DNA from: Rhodococcus sp. B7740
GTDB taxonomy: Bacteria > Actinomycetota > Actinomycetes > Mycobacteriales > Mycobacteriaceae
Assembly (NCBI RefSeq): GCF_000954115.1
Contig: NZ_CP010797.1
Span: 4,526,001-4,590,000, forward strand
Length of the DNA: 64,000 nucleotides
Direction: 5' to 3'
The translations under genes were made by a program, and so were the position numbers. Shown here in pieces: positions 36,738 to 47,181 of this stretch (positions are counted from its first letter, which is position 1; every line of letters starts with the position of its first letter). Under the pieces are notes generated by a model. That model was not told the origin of the DNA, ran no database searches, and saw only the letters and a list, made by a program, of their open reading frames with translations.

Positions 36738-37369
36738 CGGCGGTACTGCTCGAAGTGCAGGGCGTCGTCGAGAGGACGGCGGGTGCGCCACCCGAAGCGC
36801 TCCAGATCGGGAACCTCCTGGAACGATTCGACCGGACCCACACACAGCCACGCGATGGGGCGAACCGGTGCGGGGATGTCGAGCAGTTCGGTGAGATAAG
36901 CCTCGTCGTAGAAAGAGACCCAGCCGACGCCGACATTCTCGGCTATCGCTGCGAGCCAGAGATTTTCGATGGCCAGTACGGCGGAGAACAATCCGGTGTC
37001 GTCGACGGTGTCGCGGCCGAGGACGTGCCGCCCTCCACGGCCCGGATCGTAGGTGACCACCACCCCGGTTCCGCTCGTCTCGATTCCCTCGATACGGATG
37101 GGGTCGAACGTCTTTCGGCGTTCGGCATCGAGCTTGTCCGCGAAGTCCTGTCGGCAGCCGGCCACGTGGGCGGCGAAGGCGCTCAGGGTATCGGGCTTGC
37201 GGACGATCACGAAGTCCCAGGGTTGGGTGTTGCCGACGCTCGGGGCCTGATGCGCGGCACCGAGGATGCGGCGCAGCGTCTCGTCGTCGACGACGGTTCC
37301 GTCGAACTCGGCGCGAACGTCGCGGCGAGATCGAATGGCTGCATACACCGACAGGGCTGCCTCGGTCAT
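36734..37369 (-). CDS. bluB: 5,6-dimethylbenzimidazole synthase BluB
   Basis: A 211-residue flavin-dependent enzyme of the nitroreductase fold that cleaves FMNH2 to dimethylbenzimidazole, the lower ligand of vitamin B12. RSRRDVRAEF, AAHQAPSVGNTQPWDF and VGWVSFYDEAYLTELLDIP follow BluB rather than generic nitroreductases. The start ATG overlaps the stop of the GGDEF-EAL gene as ATGA. No other cobalamin genes are in the window. Confidence 0.82.
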   Translation of the reverse strand: MTEAALSVYAAIRSRRDVRAEFDGTVVDDETLRRILGAAHQAPSVGNTQPWDFVIVRKPDTLSAFAAHVAGCRQDFADKLDAERRKTFDPIRIEGIETSGTGVVVTYDPGRGGRHVLGRDTVDDTGLFSAVLAIENLWLAAIAENVGVGWVSFYDEAYLTELLDIPAPVRPIAWLCVGPVESFQEVPDLERFGWRTRRPLDDALHFEQYRR

Positions 37370-39687
37370 GATATCCGTTCTCCTGTAACACTTCTCAGAC
37401 GTTCGTCGAGCTCGGCGACGAGGGCGGGCAGTCGATCTGCCGAGGTGGGCCGGCCGAGGTGGAAACCTTGTGCCCGACCGCACCGGAGCTCACGCAACGC
37501 CGTCATCGTCATCTCGTCCTCCACGCCCTCGGCCGTCACCGACAATCCCAGAGTACGGGCCAGTTCGACGGTCGAGCGCACGATGGCGGCGTGCGCGGGA
37601 TTGTGGGCCATGCCGGCGATGAAGGCGCGATCGATCTTCAACTCCTGGACCGGCAACCGCTCGATGTAGGCAAGTGAGCTGTAGCCCGTGCCGTAGTCGT
37701 CGATGGCGACCTGCACACCCATCGCGTGCAGAATCGACAGCTTCTCGGTCGCGCCCACCGGGTCGGTCATCGCCGAGGTCTCGGTGACTTCCACCGTCAA
37801 TCGCCACGGAGGACAGTCGAATTCGGTCAGCGCCGTGCACACCTGCTCGATCAAGGTGTCGTCGAACAGATTTCGAGTCGAGATGTTGACAGCGATGCTC
37901 AGGTCGAGACCGTCGGCCAGCCATTGCCTGCGTTGGGCGAGGGCGTGCGTGAGAACGTAGTTCGTCAGCGGCCGGATCAGTCCGGTACGTTCGGCGGTGG
38001 GCAGAAATGCGCTGGGGGACAGGACGTTGCCGTTCGGGTGATGCCACCGCAGCAGTGCTTCCACGCCGACGACGCTCATCGTCCTGAGGTCGACCTGAGG
38101 CTGGTAGTGCAGCCGCAGCTGGTCCGATTCGAGTGCTGTGGTGAGCTCGCCGAGCATGATGAGTTGCTCGCTCTTGTCCCGGTCCATCGATCGGTCGTAG
38201 TACGCAATGCGCGACTGAGCGGCTTTCGCCGTCTGGACGGCGAGGTCGGCGCGCTGCACGAGGCGATCCGGTGTGGTCTCCTCGTCGCCCTCGGTAGCCG
38301 GCGAATTGGACGCGACACCGACGCTCGCCTCGATGAGCAGAGTCATGTTCTCCACCTCGAAAGGCGTGGCGAATTGCTGTTGAATCTCCTCGGCCAACGC
38401 GGCCGGGTCCATCGATTCCGCCGGCCCGCACAGCGCGAACTCGTCACCGGCCAAGCGCGCCAGCAGAATCGAGTCGTCGACGATACTTCGTAGGCGCTCG
38501 GCGACCACCACGAGAACCCGGTCGCCCAGGCCGCGCCCGAACGTGTCGTTGATCTCTTTGAAACGATCGATATCGACGGTCAGCAATGTCGATCCGCCGG
38601 CATTGCTCCAGACCTGATGTTCCAGCGCGCGCAAATTGGCCAACCCGGTGAGGTGATCGGTGTCGGCGACTGCACGCAACTGCACCGTTTGAGTGTGCAG
38701 CAACCGCAACAGATCGGTGATGCGAAACACCACCAGGATCACCAACGCCCCGGCACAGAGCAGAACTGCCCAACCCCACTGCTCGATCGGTTCGTCGCGA
38801 ACGACTTCGATGAACATGACGATCGGTGCGGTCAATGTGGCCGCAGTGAGCACGACGACAGTGGGGGTGGTGAACGACGCCATCAGATGTGCGTCGGATT
38901 CGATGTTCGGGTTGGTGATGCGGCGCATCGACGGGTGCAGGGCGGCGACGCCGATCAGGACGTAGGACAGGGTCCATCCGACGTCGAACAGCGACCGCTG
39001 GGACGAGGACGCGGGCATGATCGCGAAGTTGTTGACGGTGTCGGTGACGACGAGCAACAACACGGCGCAGGTGAGCAGTCGGTAGGACAGGGCTCGCCAT
39101 TGTCGTGATCCGACGAAGTGGGCCAACAGTCCGAGCAGGAAGATGTCCATCGCGGGGTACGCGACGTCGACGAGTCCGCCCAATCCGGAGATTCCTTCCG
39201 CGCCGAGCGTCGGCTGGACGGCGAAGACCCAGGTGAGCAGTCCGAAGGCCACCATGATGATGGCACTGTTGGCGACATGCCCACGCTCACTGGCCCGCCA
39301 CTCGTGGCGGGCCAGCAGAAACAGGCCGAAACCGTAGATCGGATAGCCGACGAGGTACAGCGCATCGGCGATCGAGGGATACGGCACGCTGCCGCGAGTG
39401 ACGTGGATCCACTCGAACACGATGTCGCCGAGCACCCACAGTGCGGTTCCGGTGGCGATGGCCAGCCAGGCTCTGCGGTTGGCGGGCCGGTGCATCCTGG
39501 TACCGATCACGGTGGCAGCGACGGCGGACGCTCCGACGAGTACGAAGACCGACTGAGCCCAGACGATCGTGGGGACGAGGAAGTAGACGACGCAGCCGAC
39601 TGCGCCGAGCGCTGCGTACCACCGCCACCAGGCCGTCACGATTTTCTCCAGCCGTTCACGCCGATCCGACGGCTTCAACAATGTCAC
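37366..39687 (-). CDS. Membrane GGDEF-EAL protein (second copy)
   Basis: A 773-residue paralogue of the protein at 5140-7446, with the same plan: about nine hydrophobic helices (1-320), GGDEF, then EAL. Here the GGDEF motif reads AGDEF, keeping the catalytic acidic pair, and the RxxD inhibitory site is missing. AGDEF variants can be active in some enzymes, so cyclase activity is possible. The EAL half has EALLRW, DDYGTGYSS and KIDRA and looks active. The C-terminus overlaps bluB by 4 bp. It is divergent from the TetR gene at 39796. Confidence 0.88.
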   Translation of the reverse strand: MTLLKPSDRRERLEKIVTAWWRWYAALGAVGCVVYFLVPTIVWAQSVFVLVGASAVAATVIGTRMHRPANRRAWLAIATGTALWVLGDIVFEWIHVTRGSVPYPSIADALYLVGYPIYGFGLFLLARHEWRASERGHVANSAIIMVAFGLLTWVFAVQPTLGAEGISGLGGLVDVAYPAMDIFLLGLLAHFVGSRQWRALSYRLLTCAVLLLVVTDTVNNFAIMPASSSQRSLFDVGWTLSYVLIGVAALHPSMRRITNPNIESDAHLMASFTTPTVVVLTAATLTAPIVMFIEVVRDEPIEQWGWAVLLCAGALVILVVFRITDLLRLLHTQTVQLRAVADTDHLTGLANLRALEHQVWSNAGGSTLLTVDIDRFKEINDTFGRGLGDRVLVVVAERLRSIVDDSILLARLAGDEFALCGPAESMDPAALAEEIQQQFATPFEVENMTLLIEASVGVASNSPATEGDEETTPDRLVQRADLAVQTAKAAQSRIAYYDRSMDRDKSEQLIMLGELTTALESDQLRLHYQPQVDLRTMSVVGVEALLRWHHPNGNVLSPSAFLPTAERTGLIRPLTNYVLTHALAQRRQWLADGLDLSIAVNISTRNLFDDTLIEQVCTALTEFDCPPWRLTVEVTETSAMTDPVGATEKLSILHAMGVQVAIDDYGTGYSSLAYIERLPVQELKIDRAFIAGMAHNPAHAAIVRSTVELARTLGLSVTAEGVEDEMTMTALRELRCGRAQGFHLGRPTSADRLPALVAELDERLRSVTGERIS

Positions 39688-39754
39688 ACTGACGTGATGT
39701 AGGTCACCTGCACTCGCGTCCCGTGACAGAAGTATGCCTCAGCGCTACGATCGA

Positions 39755-39785
39755 TTATCGGTACGAAACTGTTTCGATTCGATAA
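39755..39785. promoter_or_regulatory. Two-tier palindrome, likely TetR operator
   Basis: TTATCG-gta-CGAAAC-t-GTTTCG-att-CGATAA is a perfect paired inverted repeat centred on position 39770, 10 bp before the TetR ATG and in the promoter gap shared with the divergent GGDEF-EAL gene. The size and symmetry fit a TetR dimer site, suggesting autoregulation and possibly control of the c-di-GMP gene. Confidence 0.7.
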
Positions 39786-39795
39786 GGGGGCACGG

Positions 39796-40389
39796 ATGAA
39801 CGGCGACGCCCCACGTCGGTCGAGGGTGAGTATGGAGCGCGAGGGCGAGTTTCTCGACGCTGCGCTGCTCTGCCTCGGGGAGGTCGGTTACGACTCGCTG
39901 TCGATGGACCTGGTTGCCGAACGAGCGCAGTGCAGCAAAGCCACCCTCTATCGGAGGTGGTCGAGCAAGGCCGAGCTGGTGGTCGCTGCCATCGAATCGG
40001 TGGGCCCCCCGCCGTTCGTGGGCATCGATACCGGCGACCTTCGTGGAGATCTGCTCGAGCTGATGCACCGGGTGTCCGAGGGGGCGGAGCACGATCAACG
40101 TTTCGCCGCGGCGATCCACCATGCGGTGATGGTCGACGAACAGTTGGCGGCAGCGGTGCGGAGAACGTTCCTCGAACCCGAGGCTCGATTCCTCGAGTCG
40201 GTCGTCATGCGTGCGGTGGAGCGGGGGGAATTGTCGACCAGACCGCCCGCTGCCGATTTTCTGCAATACATGGTTTTCAGCGCGATCATGACGGGGCCAT
40301 TGACCGATGCCAAGCCTTTGGATTCGGAATACCGAACCCGAATCATCGACGAGGTCATTCTGCCGGCCCTGCGCTCGGAGACTCGCTGA
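39796..40389 (+). CDS. TetR family transcriptional regulator
   Basis: A 197-residue repressor with an N-terminal helix-turn-helix (MDLVAERAQCSKATLYRRWS, about 38-57) and a C-terminal helical ligand domain of the AcrR_C type (FLEPEARFLESVVMRAVERGE). The ligand is unknown. A strong palindrome precedes it. An internal ATG at 39832 (MEREGEF) is a less likely start. Divergent neighbour: the GGDEF-EAL gene. Confidence 0.88.
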   Translation: MNGDAPRRSRVSMEREGEFLDAALLCLGEVGYDSLSMDLVAERAQCSKATLYRRWSSKAELVVAAIESVGPPPFVGIDTGDLRGDLLELMHRVSEGAEHDQRFAAAIHHAVMVDEQLAAAVRRTFLEPEARFLESVVMRAVERGELSTRPPAADFLQYMVFSAIMTGPLTDAKPLDSEYRTRIIDEVILPALRSETR

Positions 40390-40711
40390 TCGCGAGCCTG
40401 TTCGGTCGGAGTTACGTTGCCTGCAGTGAACAATCGAAACTCTTGCACTGCAACATGATAAGAAAATATGACCCTCCCCGACGTCCGAAGTGGCTGTCGG
40501 GTATTCGTCGTGGATCGACTGTGTGCTGCCAGGCTTCTCACGGCTGAATTGGCAGGAAACTGCCAGCTTCCTGTATGGAATTTCCGGACCGAATGTCTCT
40601 ATGGTTAACGGCATCCGAACAAACGGTAAACAGCGAGGATTTACGCCGGTGCGCGGGCCGAACCACCCCCGGTAACCAGTGCGAAATTCGATACAACTCG
40701 ATCGGAATGCG
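40390..40711. other. Long non-coding leader before the DUF4956 gene
   Basis: About 320 bp without a convincing gene. The middle part around 40450-40480 is unusually AT-rich for this genome. A compact hairpin, TGGCAG-GAAA-CTGCCA, lies at 40550-40565 and has a GNRA-type tetraloop. No T-run follows it. The region should hold the promoter, and perhaps an RNA leader, of the DUF4956-CotH cluster. I recognise no known riboswitch. Confidence 0.5.
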
Positions 40712-41389
40712 ATGAATTTCAACATTCAAGACCTGAGCGGAACGTTCTCGACGTTCGATATCGTGGTGTCTCTGACACTGTCGTTCGTCCTGTCGGCCAT
40801 CATCGGCTGGGTCTATCGACTCACCCACAAGAACGTCTCGTACAGCCAGTCCTACGTCCAAACTCTCGTCACGGTGGGCATGGTCATCAGCCTGATCATG
40901 CTGGTCGTCGGATCGAACGTGGCACGGGCGTTCGCCCTCGTCGGTGCTTTGTCCGTCGTCCGATTCCGCAACGCCATCAAGGAAACTCGCGACGTCGGCT
41001 TCATCTTCCTCGTGATGGCAATCGGCATGGCCACGGGAACTCGCTTCTACGTGTTGGCGATCGCGGCAACGTTCGCGATCTGCCTGGTGATGGTGGTGAT
41101 GAGCAAGTTCGACTGGTTCAAGCTCGATGTGCAGCGTCAGGTCGTCAAGGTTCAGGTGCCACCCGACGCCGATTACACCGATCTGGTCGAGGACGTACTG
41201 ATCAAGTACTGCAAGGAGTTCGAGCTTGTCAGTACCGAATCGGTGAGATCGGGTGCACTGACCGAGCTGTATTTCACCGCACAACTGCGGTCCGGCAAGA
41301 AGCCCGGTGAGTTGATCGCTGCCCTCAGTGAGGTCAACACCGGACAACGGGTTTCGGTACTCACCGGATACGACCAGACGGATATCTGA
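40712..41389 (+). CDS. DUF4956 integral membrane protein
   Basis: A 225-residue protein. Four or so membrane helices (about residues 12-140) contain the signature GALSVVRFRNAIKETRD between helices, a charged loop that resembles MgtC-type membrane proteins. A cytosolic ferredoxin-like domain of about 85 residues follows. DUF4956 genes often sit beside VTC-domain and CotH genes, as here. The function is unknown. The start is uncertain: ATG at 40712 or GTG at 40679. The CotH gene begins 2 bp downstream. Confidence 0.85.
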   Translation: MNFNIQDLSGTFSTFDIVVSLTLSFVLSAIIGWVYRLTHKNVSYSQSYVQTLVTVGMVISLIMLVVGSNVARAFALVGALSVVRFRNAIKETRDVGFIFLVMAIGMATGTRFYVLAIAATFAICLVMVVMSKFDWFKLDVQRQVVKVQVPPDADYTDLVEDVLIKYCKEFELVSTESVRSGALTELYFTAQLRSGKKPGELIAALSEVNTGQRVSVLTGYDQTDI

Positions 41390-41391
41390 TC

Positions 41392-43068
41392 GTGGCCGAC
41401 CCGAACACGAACTTTCCCTCCGCTCCGACGACCCTGCGAAGGAGGTTGATCCATCGAATTCCTCGGAGGGTCCGGCAGCACTGGAAGATCGCTGCCACGC
41501 TCCTGGTGTTCGTCGTGGTGATGGCGACCGTGTTCGGGTCGACCCGGATCCGCCCGTACATCACCGGCGATGCAACCGTCATCGCGTCGGAGATCACCGA
41601 GAACGTCCAGGGCACGGTCGGCCTCTTCGATCCCACTGTGTCGCATTCGATTTCGCTCGACATCGATGCCGGTGACTACCAGACCCTGAAGGACTCGTTC
41701 CAGAACGAGGGTGTCAAGGAATCGGTACCCGCCGACATCACCATCGACGGGACTCTGATCTCGGACGTCGGTATTCGACTGAAGGGCAACTCGACGCTGA
41801 GTTCGCTGAGCAACGATGACGGCACGATGCCGGGACGCGGTGCCGGCAATGCCGGCGCGGAGCGCGCAGCACCCCCTGTGAACGGCGCAACCATGCCCGA
41901 GGGCGCGGCGATGCCCGATGGCGCGGCCATGCCTGACGGCGCAGCCATGCCCGAGGGTGCGGCGATGCCCGAGGGTGCGGCGACGCCGGAGGGCGGGGGA
42001 ATGCCCGGGGGAGCCGGGTTGGCTGTGTTCGGTGAACCGCTCAGTTTCGATGCGCCCGAGGATCTTCCGTTTCTGATCGACTTCGCCGAGTACTCCGAGG
42101 GGCGGGCGTATCAGGGTCACACCACGCTCTCGCTGCGGCCGTACACTCCGGCGTTGAACGAGTCGGTCTCTCTTGCGATCACCGACGCTTCGGACCAGCC
42201 GACCCAGGACTTCACCTACACCACGTACTCGGTGAACGACTCGGCCGAGACGACGCGACTGGTGGTCGTCGCTCCCGATGACGACTACGCCAATTCTCTG
42301 GAGGACGGCGACGGGGTGTTGTACAAGACCGGAGCGAATGCGACCTTCACGTATCAGGGTGACGATCAGACCACCTATGCAGAGCAGTTCACCCAGATCA
42401 ATGCCCGCGGGACAGCGGACCTGCAACCGATCATCACGCTGTTGAAGTGGCTCGACGGTGCAGACCAGGCCGAGTTCGATGCGCATCTGGCCGACTACGT
42501 CGACGTCGACTCGCTGGCGAATTATCTTGCACTGCAGAACTTGCTGGGCAACGGCGACGACATGGGCGGACCGGGAAAGAACTTCTACCTCTACTACGAC
42601 CTGGACACGAAAAAGTTCTCCGTCGTGTCGTGGGATCTCAATCTGGCTCTGAATTCCGATTCCACCGCCGGGGCCCACGACGAAGTCTCGATGATTCCCG
42701 GTGGCGGAGGGGCAGGCGGTGGCATGCCGCAGCTGCCCGAGGGCTTCACCCCACCGGAGGGAGTGGAGCTCCCGGAAGGCGGGGGCATGCCCGAAGGTGG
42801 CCCGATGCTGGGTAATTCGCTCAAGGACATGTTCTTGGATTCGACGGAGTTCACCGACGAGTACGACACTGCGTTCCGCACGATCTACGACGAGTTGTGG
42901 GCCAGTGGCCGGGTGCTCGACATCGTCGACGAGGTCGCCGCGTCCGTTCCCACGTCGGCCGGTCTCTCCCAGGAGGACATCGATGCGGATGCTGCGGAAT
43001 TGAAGTCACGGCTGCAGATCCGAATCGACGCACTCGCCGACGATCCTGTTGTCACGGGATCGTCGTGA
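41392..43068 (+). CDS. CotH-kinase-like membrane protein
   Basis: A 558-residue protein starting with GTG. One membrane helix lies near 30-50, and the rest is predicted outside. The CotH fold is shown by VGIRLKGNSTLSS, the distal KNFYLYYD and the VSWDLNLAL block. In spore formers CotH is an atypical protein kinase. A low-complexity insert at about 168-203 has six 6-residue repeats of the MPEGAA/MPDGAA type, and a second Met/Pro/Glu/Gly-rich stretch follows WDLNLAL. The repeats are probable acidic linkers or phospho-acceptor segments (inference). It is two bases after the DUF4956 gene. Confidence 0.82.
   Translation: MADPNTNFPSAPTTLRRRLIHRIPRRVRQHWKIAATLLVFVVVMATVFGSTRIRPYITGDATVIASEITENVQGTVGLFDPTVSHSISLDIDAGDYQTLKDSFQNEGVKESVPADITIDGTLISDVGIRLKGNSTLSSLSNDDGTMPGRGAGNAGAERAAPPVNGATMPEGAAMPDGAAMPDGAAMPEGAAMPEGAATPEGGGMPGGAGLAVFGEPLSFDAPEDLPFLIDFAEYSEGRAYQGHTTLSLRPYTPALNESVSLAITDASDQPTQDFTYTTYSVNDSAETTRLVVVAPDDDYANSLEDGDGVLYKTGANATFTYQGDDQTTYAEQFTQINARGTADLQPIITLLKWLDGADQAEFDAHLADYVDVDSLANYLALQNLLGNGDDMGGPGKNFYLYYDLDTKKFSVVSWDLNLALNSDSTAGAHDEVSMIPGGGGAGGGMPQLPEGFTPPEGVELPEGGGMPEGGPMLGNSLKDMFLDSTEFTDEYDTAFRTIYDELWASGRVLDIVDEVAASVPTSAGLSQEDIDADAAELKSRLQIRIDALADDPVVTGSS
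41893..42000 (+). repeat. 18-bp tandem repeats inside the CotH gene
   Basis: Six in-frame 18-bp units encode MPEGAA, MPDGAA, MPDGAA, MPEGAA, MPEGAA and TPEGGG. Copy number may vary between strains. Confidence 0.8.
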
Positions 43069-43079
43069 TGTCCCGGCGG

Positions 43080-43247
43080 TCAGCGCAGGGTCAGGGTGTC
43101 CGCCGGGGAAACCTCGCGGCGGGGGTCGCGCAGCGGCAGTCCGTTGAGCAGGACCATGCCCTCCATCACGAAGGAGGCGGCCTGCGCGAGCGTGCGCGCC
43201 GTACCCGTGGCCACCAGCAACTCCGGAACAGAGGTTCGACCGTTCAT
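43080..43247 (-). CDS. Small S4-like domain protein
   Basis: A 55-residue frame on the minus strand between two plus-strand genes, starting MNGRTSVPELLVATG and continuing ARTLAQAASFVMEGMVLLNG then VSPADTLTL. This matches the compact S4 RNA-binding fold found at the C-terminus of tyrosyl-tRNA synthetase and in small stand-alone proteins. The ATG has a weak GGGAG about 15 bp upstream. It is convergent with the CotH gene, 11 bp from its stop. Expression is not certain. Confidence 0.6.
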   Translation of the reverse strand: MNGRTSVPELLVATGTARTLAQAASFVMEGMVLLNGLPLRDPRREVSPADTLTLR

Positions 43248-43313
43248 GAGCCGATGTTGCTCCCGGGTGGTGACGATCGCCGCTCGTTCGCGTGGCGGTC
43301 AGCCGACGCGTGG

Positions 43314-44183
43314 GTGAACAACAGGAATCGACGCGTGGGTCGGACTGTCGCCGCATGTGGGATCGGTGTGTCGGTTCTCGCGTCGTGCGGGGTGACCCAA
43401 CCGGAATCGGCGGCGGCATTCGAGACCTGGTGTACTCCGACCGATCCGGGACTGTCCGAGCTCTCGGGCCTGGCGTGGACGGGCGATACCGGATACGCGA
43501 TAGGAGATCGCGGCAGCGACGACCGGCTGGCGGTGCTCGACCGTGCCTGCGAGGTCACGAGGTGGGTCGAGGTCGGGGTCGAGACGGTCGACGTCGAGGA
43601 CATGGCCGTCGATCGTGCGGGGATCGTGTGGCTCGCCGACACCGGTGACAACGACAGCGACCGCGACAGCGTCACGCTGATCGGTGTCGATGTTCGGTCC
43701 GATCGGCGGACCTCCGTCTCTCTGCGCTACCCGGACGGCGCACACGACGTCGAGGCGTTCGCTCTGACGCCCAGCGGGCAACCGGTGTTGATCACCAAGG
43801 TCTCGGGCGGTGCGTCCGCCACGATATACAGCAGCGCCGAATCCGTCACCACCTCTCCGCAATTGATCGATCTTGCTCGCAATGGAACGGTGTCGGCGAC
43901 GGCACCGGACGGATCGAGCAGGCCGATCACCGGGGCGGCCGTCGATGCCGATGCCACTGTGGGGGCACTGCGAACGAAGAAGGATCTGCTCGTCTTCGAT
44001 ATCGCCGACGGCGATGTGGCCGCGGCATTCTCGGGCGCTCCCACCGGTGTTGTCGAGGGCCCCGATCAACCACAGGGCGAGGCCGTCGCCTTCACCGACG
44101 CGGGTGAACTGCTGCTCGCGTCCGAGGCCGACGGAGCTGCCGAACTGCCCGCCGTAGTGCTCGCTCCGTTCCACCGTTCGTAG
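43314..44183 (+). CDS. Beta-propeller lipoprotein of unknown function
   Basis: A 289-residue exported lipoprotein starting with GTG. The lipobox is LASC, near residue 23. The mature part begins WCTPTDPGLSELSGLAW and carries blade-like repeats (GYAIGDRGSDDRLAVLD, VEDMAVDRAGIVWLADTGDN) with many Asp residues, like calcium-dependent propellers of the phytase-like or esterase-like groups. I cannot assign a reaction. It precedes the VTC gene by 15 bp, so a phosphate-related role is tempting but unproven. Confidence 0.65.
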   Translation: MNNRNRRVGRTVAACGIGVSVLASCGVTQPESAAAFETWCTPTDPGLSELSGLAWTGDTGYAIGDRGSDDRLAVLDRACEVTRWVEVGVETVDVEDMAVDRAGIVWLADTGDNDSDRDSVTLIGVDVRSDRRTSVSLRYPDGAHDVEAFALTPSGQPVLITKVSGGASATIYSSAESVTTSPQLIDLARNGTVSATAPDGSSRPITGAAVDADATVGALRTKKDLLVFDIADGDVAAAFSGAPTGVVEGPDQPQGEAVAFTDAGELLLASEADGAAELPAVVLAPFHRS

Positions 44184-44198
44184 GAAGAAGGAACTCTC

Positions 44199-45116
44199 AT
44201 GAGTCTGTTCGACAAATTTCGACCCAAGGCCGCACTGGAGAAGCAGGGTGCGTCGCCGGAGGACCTGACCACCGAGCCCACCGGTTACCAGCAGACCGCC
44301 AGCAAGCTGCACTCGTTCAACCGGTACGAGATCAAGTACTTCGTCGCCGAGGCAGACGTCGCGCAGGTCCGTGAAGAGCTGACGGCGCGGATGGACACCG
44401 ATCCGTTCTCGCCGAAGGGCGGTTACCCGGTCACCTCGCTGTACTACGACACCACCGACCTGCGGTTCTACTGGGAGAAGATCGAGGGCCTGAAGTTCCG
44501 ACGCAAGGTGCGGGTGCGCCTGTACGGGGCACCGTCGGAGTGCACGGACGACACACCGGTGCAGATCGAGATCAAGCAGCGCGTCAACAGGGTCACGCAG
44601 AAGCGTCGAATCTCGTTGCCCTACGACGTTTCTCAGCGGTGGTTGAACGGACGTGAGGAGATCGACTGCGACCCGAGTCAACGCCCGTTCGTCAACGAGG
44701 TCAGTACGTTGATCGCCAATCTCGACCTGCGTCCGATGGTGACGACCGGCTATCTACGCGAGGCGTACGTCGGACGCGAGGCCGATCTGGGGCTTCGGGT
44801 CACCATCGATCACAAGGTGCACGGACGCGACCGCGACTTCCGCTTCGACTCCGGCGCCGAGAATCGGTTCATCATTCCGCCCAAGCTCGCCATCCTGGAG
44901 ATCAAGGCCAACGAGCGGGTTCCGTACTGGGTGACCGATATGACGGCTCGCATGAACATGTCCGTCATTCGCGTCTCGAAGTACTGCCAGTCCATCGAGG
45001 CATTCGGAATGGCACCCCGATCACGCGCCGGTGCACCCGAACTCGTGCTTCCCGCCGATTCCGACCATCGCGTGCCGTCGGATCTACTCGAGCCATACGC
45101 CGGCGCTCGCCGGTAG
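44199..45116 (+). CDS. VTC-domain protein (polyphosphate polymerase type)
   Basis: A 305-residue protein of the CYTH/VTC superfamily, whose yeast member Vtc4 makes polyphosphate from ATP. Residues lining the tunnel are visible in order: FNRYEIKY, SLYYDTTD, KFRRKVRVRLYG, VQIEIKQRVN, KRRISLPYD, GYLREAYVG, TIDHKV and LAILEIKANERVPYW. There is no membrane segment, so it is probably cytosolic or recruited to the membrane by the DUF4956 protein. AGGAAG precedes the ATG. It lies just ahead of DUF47 and PiT phosphate genes. Confidence 0.88.
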   Translation: MSLFDKFRPKAALEKQGASPEDLTTEPTGYQQTASKLHSFNRYEIKYFVAEADVAQVREELTARMDTDPFSPKGGYPVTSLYYDTTDLRFYWEKIEGLKFRRKVRVRLYGAPSECTDDTPVQIEIKQRVNRVTQKRRISLPYDVSQRWLNGREEIDCDPSQRPFVNEVSTLIANLDLRPMVTTGYLREAYVGREADLGLRVTIDHKVHGRDRDFRFDSGAENRFIIPPKLAILEIKANERVPYWVTDMTARMNMSVIRVSKYCQSIEAFGMAPRSRAGAPELVLPADSDHRVPSDLLEPYAGARR

Positions 45117-45141
45117 CCGACTCACCTCTAGGAGCCGCACG

Positions 45142-45759
45142 ATGTTCGCACGCTTCAAGCCCAAGTCCGTTCTGTTCTACGACCTGTTCAACTCCTCGGC
45201 TCAACTGCTGGCCACCGGAGCCAAGACGTTGACCGAACTGCTCGAATCCGCACCGGAGATCGATGCTGTTGCACGGCGCATGGTCGATCTCGAGCACGAA
45301 GCAGACAGCATCACTCACGACCTGTTCCGCACCCTGAATTCGAGTTTCATCACCCCGTTCGATCGCACCGACATCTACGTCCTGGGTTCGAGTCTCGACG
45401 ACGTGATGGACCACATGGAAGCGGCGACTCATCTGCTCTCGCTCTACCGGATCGACCGACTCACCCCGCACATGCACGACATGATCGACATCCTCGACCG
45501 GTCGGCGAAAGTCACTGCGGAAGCCATGCCGAGGCTGGCGTCGATGAAGGATCTCGAGCGCTACTGGATCGAGATCAACGAGCTCGAGAACCGGGCCGAC
45601 CATGCCTATCGGACATTCCTTGCGGATCTGTTCGATGGCCGTTTCGACGCGTTGACCGTGATGAAACTCAAGGGAGTGGGCGACGAACTCGAAGATGCCG
45701 CAGACGCTTTCGAAAAAGTCGCGCACGTCATCGAATCCATCGTGTTGAAAGAGACGTGA
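45142..45759 (+). CDS. DUF47 family protein (PhoU-like, Pit accessory)
   Basis: A 205-residue all-helical PhoU-like protein. FARFKPKSVLFYDLFNSSA, EHEADSITHDLFRTLNSSFITPFDR and the later NELENRADHAYR are DUF47 signatures, with conserved Glu/Asp pairs that may bind metal. DUF47 proteins usually accompany and regulate Pit-type phosphate transporters, and this one ends 7 bp before such a gene. AGGAG precedes the ATG. Confidence 0.92.
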   Translation: MFARFKPKSVLFYDLFNSSAQLLATGAKTLTELLESAPEIDAVARRMVDLEHEADSITHDLFRTLNSSFITPFDRTDIYVLGSSLDDVMDHMEAATHLLSLYRIDRLTPHMHDMIDILDRSAKVTAEAMPRLASMKDLERYWIEINELENRADHAYRTFLADLFDGRFDALTVMKLKGVGDELEDAADAFEKVAHVIESIVLKET

Positions 45760-45766
45760 GTGCGCG

Positions 45767-46753
45767 GTGGTAGCACTCGTTCTTGTCATCACTCTGGCGA
45801 TGGCGTTCACCTTCACCAACGGCTTTCACGATTCGGCCAATGCCATCGCGACGTCCGTGTCCACGCGTGCACTCACACTGCGTTCGGCTCTGCTCATGGC
45901 CGCGGTGGGAAACCTGCTCGGCTCCTTCTTCGGTGCGAAGGTAGCCTCGACGGTCGGCGAGGGAATCATCGCCCTCGATGTCGGATCCGACGCATTGCTC
46001 GTGGTCGGGTGCGCCCTGGTCGGTGCCATCGCCTGGAATCTGATCACGTGGTGGTTCGGGTTGCCGTCCTCGTCCTCGCACGCATTGGTCGGCGGCATGG
46101 TGGGAGCTGCACTCGCAGGCGGAATGACAGTGCTGTGGGGAGGCGTCGCGACCAAGGTGATCCTGCCGATGATCGTTTCTCCTGCAGTCGGTTTCGCGCT
46201 CGGAAGTGCCGCGATGGTGGCCATTCTGTGGATGTTCCGCCGCTCGTCTCCCAGTGCCACCAGCCGCGGATTCCGGCGAGCTCAGACATGCTCGGCCGCA
46301 GCCATGGCCTTCGGGCACGGTATGCAGGATGCGGCCAAGACGATGGGCATCGTGGTTCTGGCACTGGTGGTGTCGGGTCATCAGGCCGATTACACGATTC
46401 CTCTGTGGTGCTATTTCCTCACCGCGACGGTGCTGGCGGTCGGAACAGCGACCGGAGGAATGCGGATCATGCGCACCCTCGGCCGCAAGATCATCGAACT
46501 CGACCCACCCCAGGGCTTCGCGGCCGAGGCGACCGCATCCGCGGTTCTCTACGTGGCCTCGATCGGACTGGGAGCGCCGGTATCGACGACGCATGTCATT
46601 TCGTCGGCGATCATGGGCGTCGGGGCGACCAAGCGCACGACGGCCGTGCGTTGGGGAACGGCGGGAAACATGCTCGCGGCGTGGGTCACCACGCTGCCCG
46701 CGGCGGCAGCTGTCGCCGCGCTGACCTACGTGGTTGCCGGGGTGGTCCTGTGA
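45767..46753 (+). CDS. Inorganic phosphate transporter, PiT family
   Basis: A 328-residue low-affinity phosphate or metal-phosphate symporter. The two inverted PiT repeats are seen at NGFHDSANAIATSVSTRAL near the N-terminus and GHGMQDAAKTMG in the middle, along with LPSSSSHALVGG and APVSTTHVISSAIMG. About ten membrane helices are predicted. The start is GTG. The stop overlaps the GTG of the next lipoprotein gene. Confidence 0.94.
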   Translation: MVALVLVITLAMAFTFTNGFHDSANAIATSVSTRALTLRSALLMAAVGNLLGSFFGAKVASTVGEGIIALDVGSDALLVVGCALVGAIAWNLITWWFGLPSSSSHALVGGMVGAALAGGMTVLWGGVATKVILPMIVSPAVGFALGSAAMVAILWMFRRSSPSATSRGFRRAQTCSAAAMAFGHGMQDAAKTMGIVVLALVVSGHQADYTIPLWCYFLTATVLAVGTATGGMRIMRTLGRKIIELDPPQGFAAEATASAVLYVASIGLGAPVSTTHVISSAIMGVGATKRTTAVRWGTAGNMLAAWVTTLPAAAAVAALTYVVAGVVL

Positions 46754-47142
46754 AGTCGCGAGCAGGTCGGACAGCGGTGAGTGCTGCACTGTGTGTGGTG
46801 GCGTTGACCGCCGGCTGCAGCTACGAGCTGACGTCCTCCGGCGCAGGGAGCGATGTGTCGCGTGATGTTCAGGAGGCGCGGGACGGATTTCTCGAGACCC
46901 CGGGAATGGCCGCACTGTTCGACGACCTCTACGGGCAGGGCATCGGAACGACCGTCAACGAGGTGTTCGCGCTCGGTATCTACATCCCCGGCTTCTGCGA
47001 GACCCGCGCCCAACAGGGACTCACGGAGGAGGAAGCCGTCGCAGAGGTGACCGATTCTCTGGGAGCAACCTACGAGAAGGGGACCGGCGAACCCTGGGCC
47101 GAGCCGATAGTGCAGGCCGCGGAGGAGCACGTCTGCCGCTGA
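46750..47142 (+). CDS. Small DUF732-like lipoprotein
   Basis: A 130-residue exported lipoprotein with lipobox LTAGC near residue 23. The mature domain has two cysteines (GFCETR and the C-terminal EHVCR), probably a disulfide, and a helical plan like DUF732 proteins of mycobacteria. The GTG start overlaps the PiT stop as GTGA, so it belongs to the phosphate cluster and may serve the transporter from the outside. The function is unknown. Confidence 0.7.
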   Translation: MKSRAGRTAVSAALCVVALTAGCSYELTSSGAGSDVSRDVQEARDGFLETPGMAALFDDLYGQGIGTTVNEVFALGIYIPGFCETRAQQGLTEEEAVAEVTDSLGATYEKGTGEPWAEPIVQAAEEHVCR

Positions 47143-47181
47143 GTCGGGTGCGGTGTCGGTGGGCCGTGCGAGCATGGACTC

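Follow-up and report, generated by a model that had tools for sequence, protein, structure and literature searches.

The sequence analyzed here is a 64,000-nucleotide stretch of Rhodococcus sp. B7740 (NZ_CP010797.1), hereafter the window, taken from a genome assembly that consists of a single 5.34-Mb contig and whose nearest named relatives are Rhodococcus isolates. It carries a cassette of seven plus-strand genes at 40712-47142, which an earlier reading of the sequence (the original prediction) had put forward as a possible envelope polyphosphate or phosphorylation system. All seven genes were found and five are confirmed by Pfam, but only three of them are widely kept together: those encoding a DUF4956 membrane protein, a putative CotH-type kinase, and a VTC-type polymerase domain. 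This trio is the conserved core of the cassette and a real, strictly kept module, to which the other genes are add-ons. The limits drawn around the seven genes hold for the genes themselves, although the unit that is present or absent among relatives is larger, spanning approximately 39708 to 47153 and including a TetR-type regulator gene.

40712..41389, plus strand: DUF4956 membrane protein, 225 amino acids, core (Pfam 1.6e-25)
41392..43068, plus strand: putative CotH-type kinase, core (Pfam 5.2e-26; one N-terminal membrane helix)
44199..45116, plus strand: VTC-type polyphosphate polymerase domain, 305 amino acids, core (Pfam 2e-48)
43314..44183, plus strand: LP1, probable beta-propeller lipoprotein, add-on (lipobox LASC by eye)
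45142..45759, plus strand: DUF47, PhoU-like partner of PiT, add-on (Pfam PhoU_div 3e-25)
45767..46753, plus strand: PiT-type phosphate transporter, add-on (Pfam PHO4 5e-90)
46750..47142, plus strand: LP2, small lipoprotein, add-on (lipobox TAGC by eye)
39796..40389, plus strand: TetR-type regulator, first gene in the insertion (Pfam TetR_N 4.8e-14, TetR_C_11 5.7e-20)
39708..47153, no strand: whole accessory insertion, lying between the GGDEF-EAL gene and dinB, edges exact to some tens of bases

Pfam assignments were judged by the curated cut-off of each family, and family matches were listed down to an E value of 1e-3. DUF4956, CotH, VTC, DUF47, and PiT exceed these cut-offs, and neither LP1 nor LP2 matches any Pfam family at 1e-3. 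The genes were said to lie mostly 2-25 bp apart or to overlap, which is true of five of the six gaps: 2 bp separate DUF4956 and CotH, 15 bp LP1 and VTC, 25 bp VTC and DUF47, and 7 bp DUF47 and PiT, and PiT and LP2 overlap by 4 bp. It is not true of the gap between CotH and LP1, which spans 233 or 245 bp according to which LP1 start is taken (GTG at 43314 is favored by eye) and at which separate transcription units may divide. A scan returned three promoter-like sites against 1.2 expected and one terminator-like site against 3.3 expected, and in places the G+C content of the block drops to 57-62%.

Conservation was followed in 80 loci, the best of 275 that encode a relative of the window VTC protein, in a phylum sample of 119 genomes that includes the window's own, and in 14 named control genomes. 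All 80 loci carry VTC, DUF4956, and CotH on one strand within 5 kb, in the order VTC, DUF4956, CotH in 77 of them; in the other three (L031, L032, and L033), VTC is placed behind CotH, as in the window. DUF4956 and CotH are no more than 10 bp apart in 75 of 79 loci, and VTC and DUF4956 no more than 100 bp apart in 65 of the 66 loci with usable coordinates in the order VTC, DUF4956. In the phylum sample, VTC occurs in 15 of 119 genomes. DUF4956 is present in all 15 and absent from the remaining 104, a coincidence beyond chance, and CotH is found in 12 of the 15 and again in 0 of 104 (the p values for trio co-occurrence ignore kinship). The VTC and DUF4956 matches lie at most 0.3 kb apart in the 14 other VTC genomes; in the window's own, the distance is 3 kb. 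CotH lies within a few kb of the pair in 11 of the 12 genomes and on another contig in G220, and its gene is on the opposite strand in G150 and in one copy of G225. Among the controls, VTC and DUF4956 match in the same three genomes, Bacteroides ihuae, Corynebacterium glutamicum, and M. acetivorans, and CotH in C. glutamicum, M. acetivorans, and B. subtilis, the last of which is without VTC; the genome of C. glutamicum, a harmless laboratory bacterium, thus matches all three trio families and has no PPK1 match. Co-occurrence was borne out for the trio, in 80 of 80 loci, and the full set of seven genes was rejected as one conserved unit, since PiT and DUF47 adjoin the trio in only 4 of the 80 and the LP1 family is common. 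Two genomes of one genus, G138 and G164 (L156 and L159), are small, carry the trio, in which a single very long open frame holds two CotH matches, and lack a PPK1 match. The VTC/DUF4956 copy at G211:C1:191830-193102 looks broken or misassembled.

The VTC genomes without CotH are G146, G180, and G218, the contig of G218 stopping at that point. A Cthe_2159 gene follows DUF4956 in G146 and G180 and also in a Paenibacillus locus (coordinates in the place of CotH: L157:4594-6624, L161:4600-6714, and L116:6685-8583). As CotH is replaced by Cthe_2159 in some genomes, only VTC and DUF4956 form a constant pair; their third partner is in most cases CotH and in some a protein that binds polymers. In the available text of the respective sources, Cthe_2159 binds cellulose and polygalacturonic acid (PMC6712302) and requires calcium for ligand recognition (PMC8746771), and both CotH and Cthe_2159 are among the domains listed as unique to anaerobic rumen fungi (PMC6712302). 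A polyanion emerging outside the cell would fit CotH and a polymer-binding partner alike. Among the order-level loci L002-L030, DUF4956 was found in 25 of 29 and was missing in L023, L025, L026, and L030, the first and last of these being the same place. One CotH profile is a poor detector, having found L117 alone and missed the CotH-annotated genes of L111 and L113. On pSymA of Sinorhizobium meliloti (L114:4272-6642), DUF4956 lies directly behind a caspase-domain gene (PF00656); the two genes scanned there gave no match to VTC.

The VTC protein scores 165.4 bits against a Pfam cut-off of 23. It shows no membrane helix by hydropathy, and its Pfam matches are to the VTC family only, with no SPX domain at 1e-3. 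A single-sequence search of the PDB returned nothing, and profile searches did find relatives; the model fold is closest to the solved yeast Vtc subunits, approximately 4-6 Z units above other tunnel enzymes. Residues R105, R107, and E234 align with Vtc4 R264, R266, and E426 (E234 in a weak second aligned stretch) and are invariant in 21 VTC proteins, and the Vtc4 residues whose mutation stops synthesis are kept in the window protein by profile alignment. All positions alignable to the yeast Vtc4 active site are conserved, in agreement with the intact tunnel originally proposed, and the fold and catalytic residues together place the protein in the VTC, or polyphosphate-polymerase, type of tunnel enzyme. 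Judged from sequence and model, it likely performs a polymerase step.

The CotH protein (92.3 bits against a cut-off of 23.8) matches its Pfam profile without the first 49 and last 38 profile positions. A helix lies near the N-terminus in 78 of 79 CotH proteins, none of which has a later helix, and the N-terminal side of this helix is the more positive in 78 of 79. Given the single N-terminal helix and this charge bias, the kinase part should lie outside the cell, and the predicted topology is thus in line with the outward-facing kinase of the original prediction. Residues K131, K312, D389, and D415 are invariant in 22 CotH proteins; D389 and D415 align with the aspartates of the NFD and WD motifs of the solved CotH structure 5jd9, which are 23 residues apart there and have the spacing of D228 and D251, the CotH residues for which a change of either is described, in the accessible part of the source, as catalytically inactive (PMC7821199). 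The window CotH therefore keeps both catalytic aspartates, as far as alignment can tell, and is a putative kinase. The protein (41392-43068) also contains two low-complexity stretches rich in Met, Pro, Glu, and Gly, one preceding the Pfam match, and the lengths of these vary in relatives.

DUF4956 (90.2 bits against a cut-off of 30.6) is built of four to five membrane helices by hydropathy, followed by an ACT/ferredoxin-like domain. A structural model gave five helices at low confidence (mean pLDDT, the predicted local distance difference test, of 61.5), and this helical model was dropped as evidence because it is too uncertain. A fold search with residues 138-223 listed many ACT/ferredoxin-like proteins, too many and too general for a function to be named, with the MgtC C-terminal domain at row 50. 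The MgtC Pfam family matches the window protein at 23.5 bits, below its cut-off of 31.4, and six of 21 DUF4956 proteins match it with an E value of 1e-3 or better.

The cassette occupies the genome as part of one insertion. In the genus sample (37 genomes including the window's own, seven of which gave no dinB locus), 30 dinB loci were compared. Eleven of these (L128-L138) join window positions of approximately 39707 and 47153 without the block, leaving approximately 38 bp unmatched between the flanks (more in L137). The window's own locus is L125, L126 and L127 carry the block, and the remaining 16 of 30, which are more distant, match on the dinB side only and are uninformative on the insertion. 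One 7.4-kb piece, comprising the TetR gene and the seven cassette genes, is therefore absent as a unit at the same site in 11 relatives, and the block is a single insertion, movable as a unit in this genus. DUF4956 occurs in four of the 37 genomes, and DUF47 in three of these four and in none of the other 33; G256 and G258 may be identical in strain to L031 and L032, so the genus occurrences do not represent many independent events. Repeats at the insertion edges amount to one 8-base inverted match and nothing more. A GGDEF-EAL cyclic di-GMP enzyme gene (37366-39687) borders the insertion from outside.

The remaining cassette genes are more loosely attached. The importer and its partner are as originally described, PHO4 scoring 302.4 bits and PhoU_div 89.3 bits, both over their cut-offs and encoded 7 bp apart. 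PiT gives a single match in this genome. The PiT-DUF47 pair beside the trio in four loci follows it in two gene orders within Rhodococcus, that of L031 and L032 and that of L035 and L060, and lies within approximately 100 bp of CotH in the latter two. In the phylum sample, DUF47 occurs in 54 of 119 genomes and adjoins VTC solely in the window's own (1 of 15); its presence in 11 of 15 VTC genomes versus 43 of 104 others (Fisher p 0.026, kinship ignored) was not used as evidence. The LP1 family occurs in 40 of 61 order-level genomes, and LP1 was rejected as a specific part of the module because its family is so common. A second LP1-like gene, 48% identical, lies at G000:C1:1363079-1363957 in the same genome. 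LP1 itself has a chance-level Phytase-like match (0.23); for its relative in L060, a match to the LpqB propeller family was obtained at 9.6e-6. Relatives of LP2 stand near the trio in three of 80 loci (L031, L032, and L033). PPK1 is present elsewhere in this genome and in 13 of 15 VTC genomes, G138 and G164 being without a match; because 13 of 15 have both enzymes, VTC as a simple replacement of PPK1 was rejected. The comparison with 59 of 104 other genomes (Fisher p 0.045, kinship ignored) was likewise not used as evidence.

Held tentatively, at slightly less than even confidence, is the reading that the cassette represents, in mobile form, an old membrane module of three genes that makes and exports polyphosphate and includes a kinase on the outside. 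In this scheme, VTC would polymerize phosphate from ATP into polyphosphate at the inner face of the membrane, and DUF4956 would anchor VTC and offer the growing chain a path across the membrane, a role equivalent to that of the Vtc1, Vtc3, and Vtc4 helices in yeast. Membrane-anchored CotH would act at the surface, on a target close to where the polymer emerges. In the Rhodococcus lineage studied here, the module would have acquired the cell's only PiT together with DUF47, and these two would bring back phosphate to make up for polymer that is made and then lost outside the cell. We infer polyphosphate as the product, contact between DUF4956 and VTC, export of the chain, a CotH target, and the feeding of the module by PiT; export and the link to the kinase are the most economical reading of the co-travelling genes and the membrane sidedness.

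Several observations weigh against this scheme. A PDB profile search with DUF4956 detected no sequence relative of solved structure, its two weak rows (0.023 and 0.11) being taken for chance; with no solved relative and a poor membrane model, a DUF4956 channel is a guess. No measured product of a bacterial VTC domain was found in the literature searched, which was mostly without subscription papers. The trio is not unbroken everywhere: CotH is missing from three of the 15 VTC genomes, and B. ihuae has VTC and DUF4956 and no CotH; DUF4956 occurs without a detected VTC neighbor in L112 and L114; the VTC and DUF4956 frames of G211 each hold one stop, and DUF4956 of G218 scores just below the family cut-off, both genomes having been counted as positive. 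The link of PiT to the trio is local, and in several Bacillota and Actinomycetota loci the trio stands among glycosyltransferases, which would also fit polysaccharide assembly.

It is quite possible, though well below an even chance, that only the trio is a functional unit and that PiT, DUF47, the lipoproteins, and TetR came along in the insertion, doing simple phosphate uptake. The rarity of DUF47 beside VTC (one of 15 genomes) and of DUF47-PiT beside the trio (four of 80 loci), the frequency of the LP1 family without VTC, and the 233-245 bp gap before LP1 all speak for this; the two Rhodococcus gene orders in which DUF47-PiT stands behind the trio, within approximately 100 bp of CotH in one of them, and the absence of DUF47 without DUF4956 in the genus sample speak against it. 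This explanation is compatible with the polyphosphate-export reading of the trio itself.

Somewhat unlikely is the proposal that the trio serves surface polysaccharides as an accessory or control unit, in which VTC and DUF4956 would sense or signal at the membrane, CotH would phosphorylate a matrix or synthase protein, and polyphosphate, if made, would stay inside as a signal. The neighborhoods that bear on it were scanned in 40 of 154 listed open reading frames and serve as examples, not counts. Glycosyltransferases lie near the trio in Pseudobutyrivibrio, Planococcus, G138, G201, and G231, GGDEF genes in G201 and G211, and an RsgI-type anti-sigma gene immediately 5' of VTC in G190 and G231 (L162:9164-10252 and L169:5824-6735), and, according to the available portion of PMC7112168, the trio is a neighbor of pelDEADAFG in streptococci, clostridia, and bifidobacteria. 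Against this, the largest non-trio gene family in 81 clustered actinobacterial loci, found in 22 of them, is response-regulator-like by sequence, and the scanned cassette genes include no glycosyltransferase; among ten scanned genes of the cassette and its surroundings, none matches a pel or glycosyltransferase family, the rest of the genome not having been searched for pel. A response-regulator-like clustered gene also lies within 4-5 kb of the trio in 19 of 80 loci, two-component genes lie near it in G146, G180, and Enterococcus, and a sigma factor is described beside the VTC genes in NELoc-2 of C. perfringens (PMC2879425, as far as its text was available). The trio seems to be placed under many controls.

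Unlikely as well is a VTC tunnel running another triphosphate reaction, splitting triphosphate or passing phosphate to a lipid or sugar carrier with DUF4956 bringing the substrate, since, although same-fold tunnel enzymes are triphosphatases or cyclases by their structure titles (rows from 10 on in the fold list) and DUF4956 has an ACT-like domain and a weak likeness to MgtC that is below cut-off in the window protein, the fold favors the Vtc subunits by those approximately 4-6 Z units and the residues essential for Vtc4 synthesis are conserved.

The polyphosphate-export reading can be taken a step further, to the distinctly improbable idea that polyphosphate exported by VTC and DUF4956 is the phosphate donor of CotH, amounting to polyphosphate-powered extracytoplasmic phosphorylation. 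There is next to no ATP outside the cell, so CotH would be fuelled by its neighbor's polyphosphate. Such fuelling would account for the absence of CotH from all genomes of the phylum sample that lack VTC (12 of 15 versus 0 of 104) and for its standing alone in Bacillus, where coat proteins are made in the mother cell (PMC7821199). A VTC-type polymerase here forms one half of a constant pair in bacteria, and most of the genomes that have it also have PPK1. If the export reading is true, the pair would be the bacterial equivalent of the VTC complex and would give polyphosphate a way to the cell surface, which bears on two questions, the exit of polyphosphate from bacteria and the fuel of a kinase outside the cell.

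Several known systems share parts of this design. VTC4 is treated as a eukaryotic polymerase, and bacteria are credited with PPK enzymes only, in the portions of PMC10657179 and PMC13318637 that were available; PPK1 presumably has the same product and belongs to a different family. In the literature searched, no test of a bacterial VTC domain and no explanation of the trio were found; the trio appears there only as unexplained neighbors of Pel and similar loci, and DUF4956 is named in the accessible text of the Pel paper (PMC7112168) and otherwise in the gene lists of two further papers. The MgtC family resembles DUF4956 in its helices and ACT-like domain, although the window protein is below the MgtC cut-off. 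Bacillus spore-coat CotH is of the same family and has both catalytic aspartates, whereas CotH here has an N-terminal membrane helix and a predicted position outside; the part of PMC7821199 that was available describes as an unanswered question where the ATP for coat phosphorylation comes from. The NELoc-2 cluster of C. perfringens likewise contains VTC genes and CotH, as described in the available sections of PMC2879425 and PMC11677781, and its 222-226 amino acid 'tubulin' genes are probably DUF4956, judging from their size and from the gene order in Planococcus L113; unlike the cassette, it continues with genes for a product of 685 amino acids, a HEAT protein, and a glycosyltransferase. In Gram-positive pel loci, the accessory genes given as CotH, DUF4956, and 'PPP' in the accessible text of PMC7112168 belong to the same three families and are also adjacent, and the authors there suggest no more than possible regulation by phosphorylation; the cassette differs in having PiT, DUF47, TetR, and two lipoproteins. 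A further comparison is with the eukaryotic VTC complex (Vtc4, Vtc1, and Vtc2/3), which has in common with the bacterial pair a conserved VTC-type tunnel and, within the sample, a constant membrane partner. In the cassette, the VTC protein is without an SPX match or a membrane helix of its own, and no cassette gene matches an SPX or Vtc1-type family at 1e-3; the membrane partner is instead DUF4956, and a putative kinase is added on the outside.

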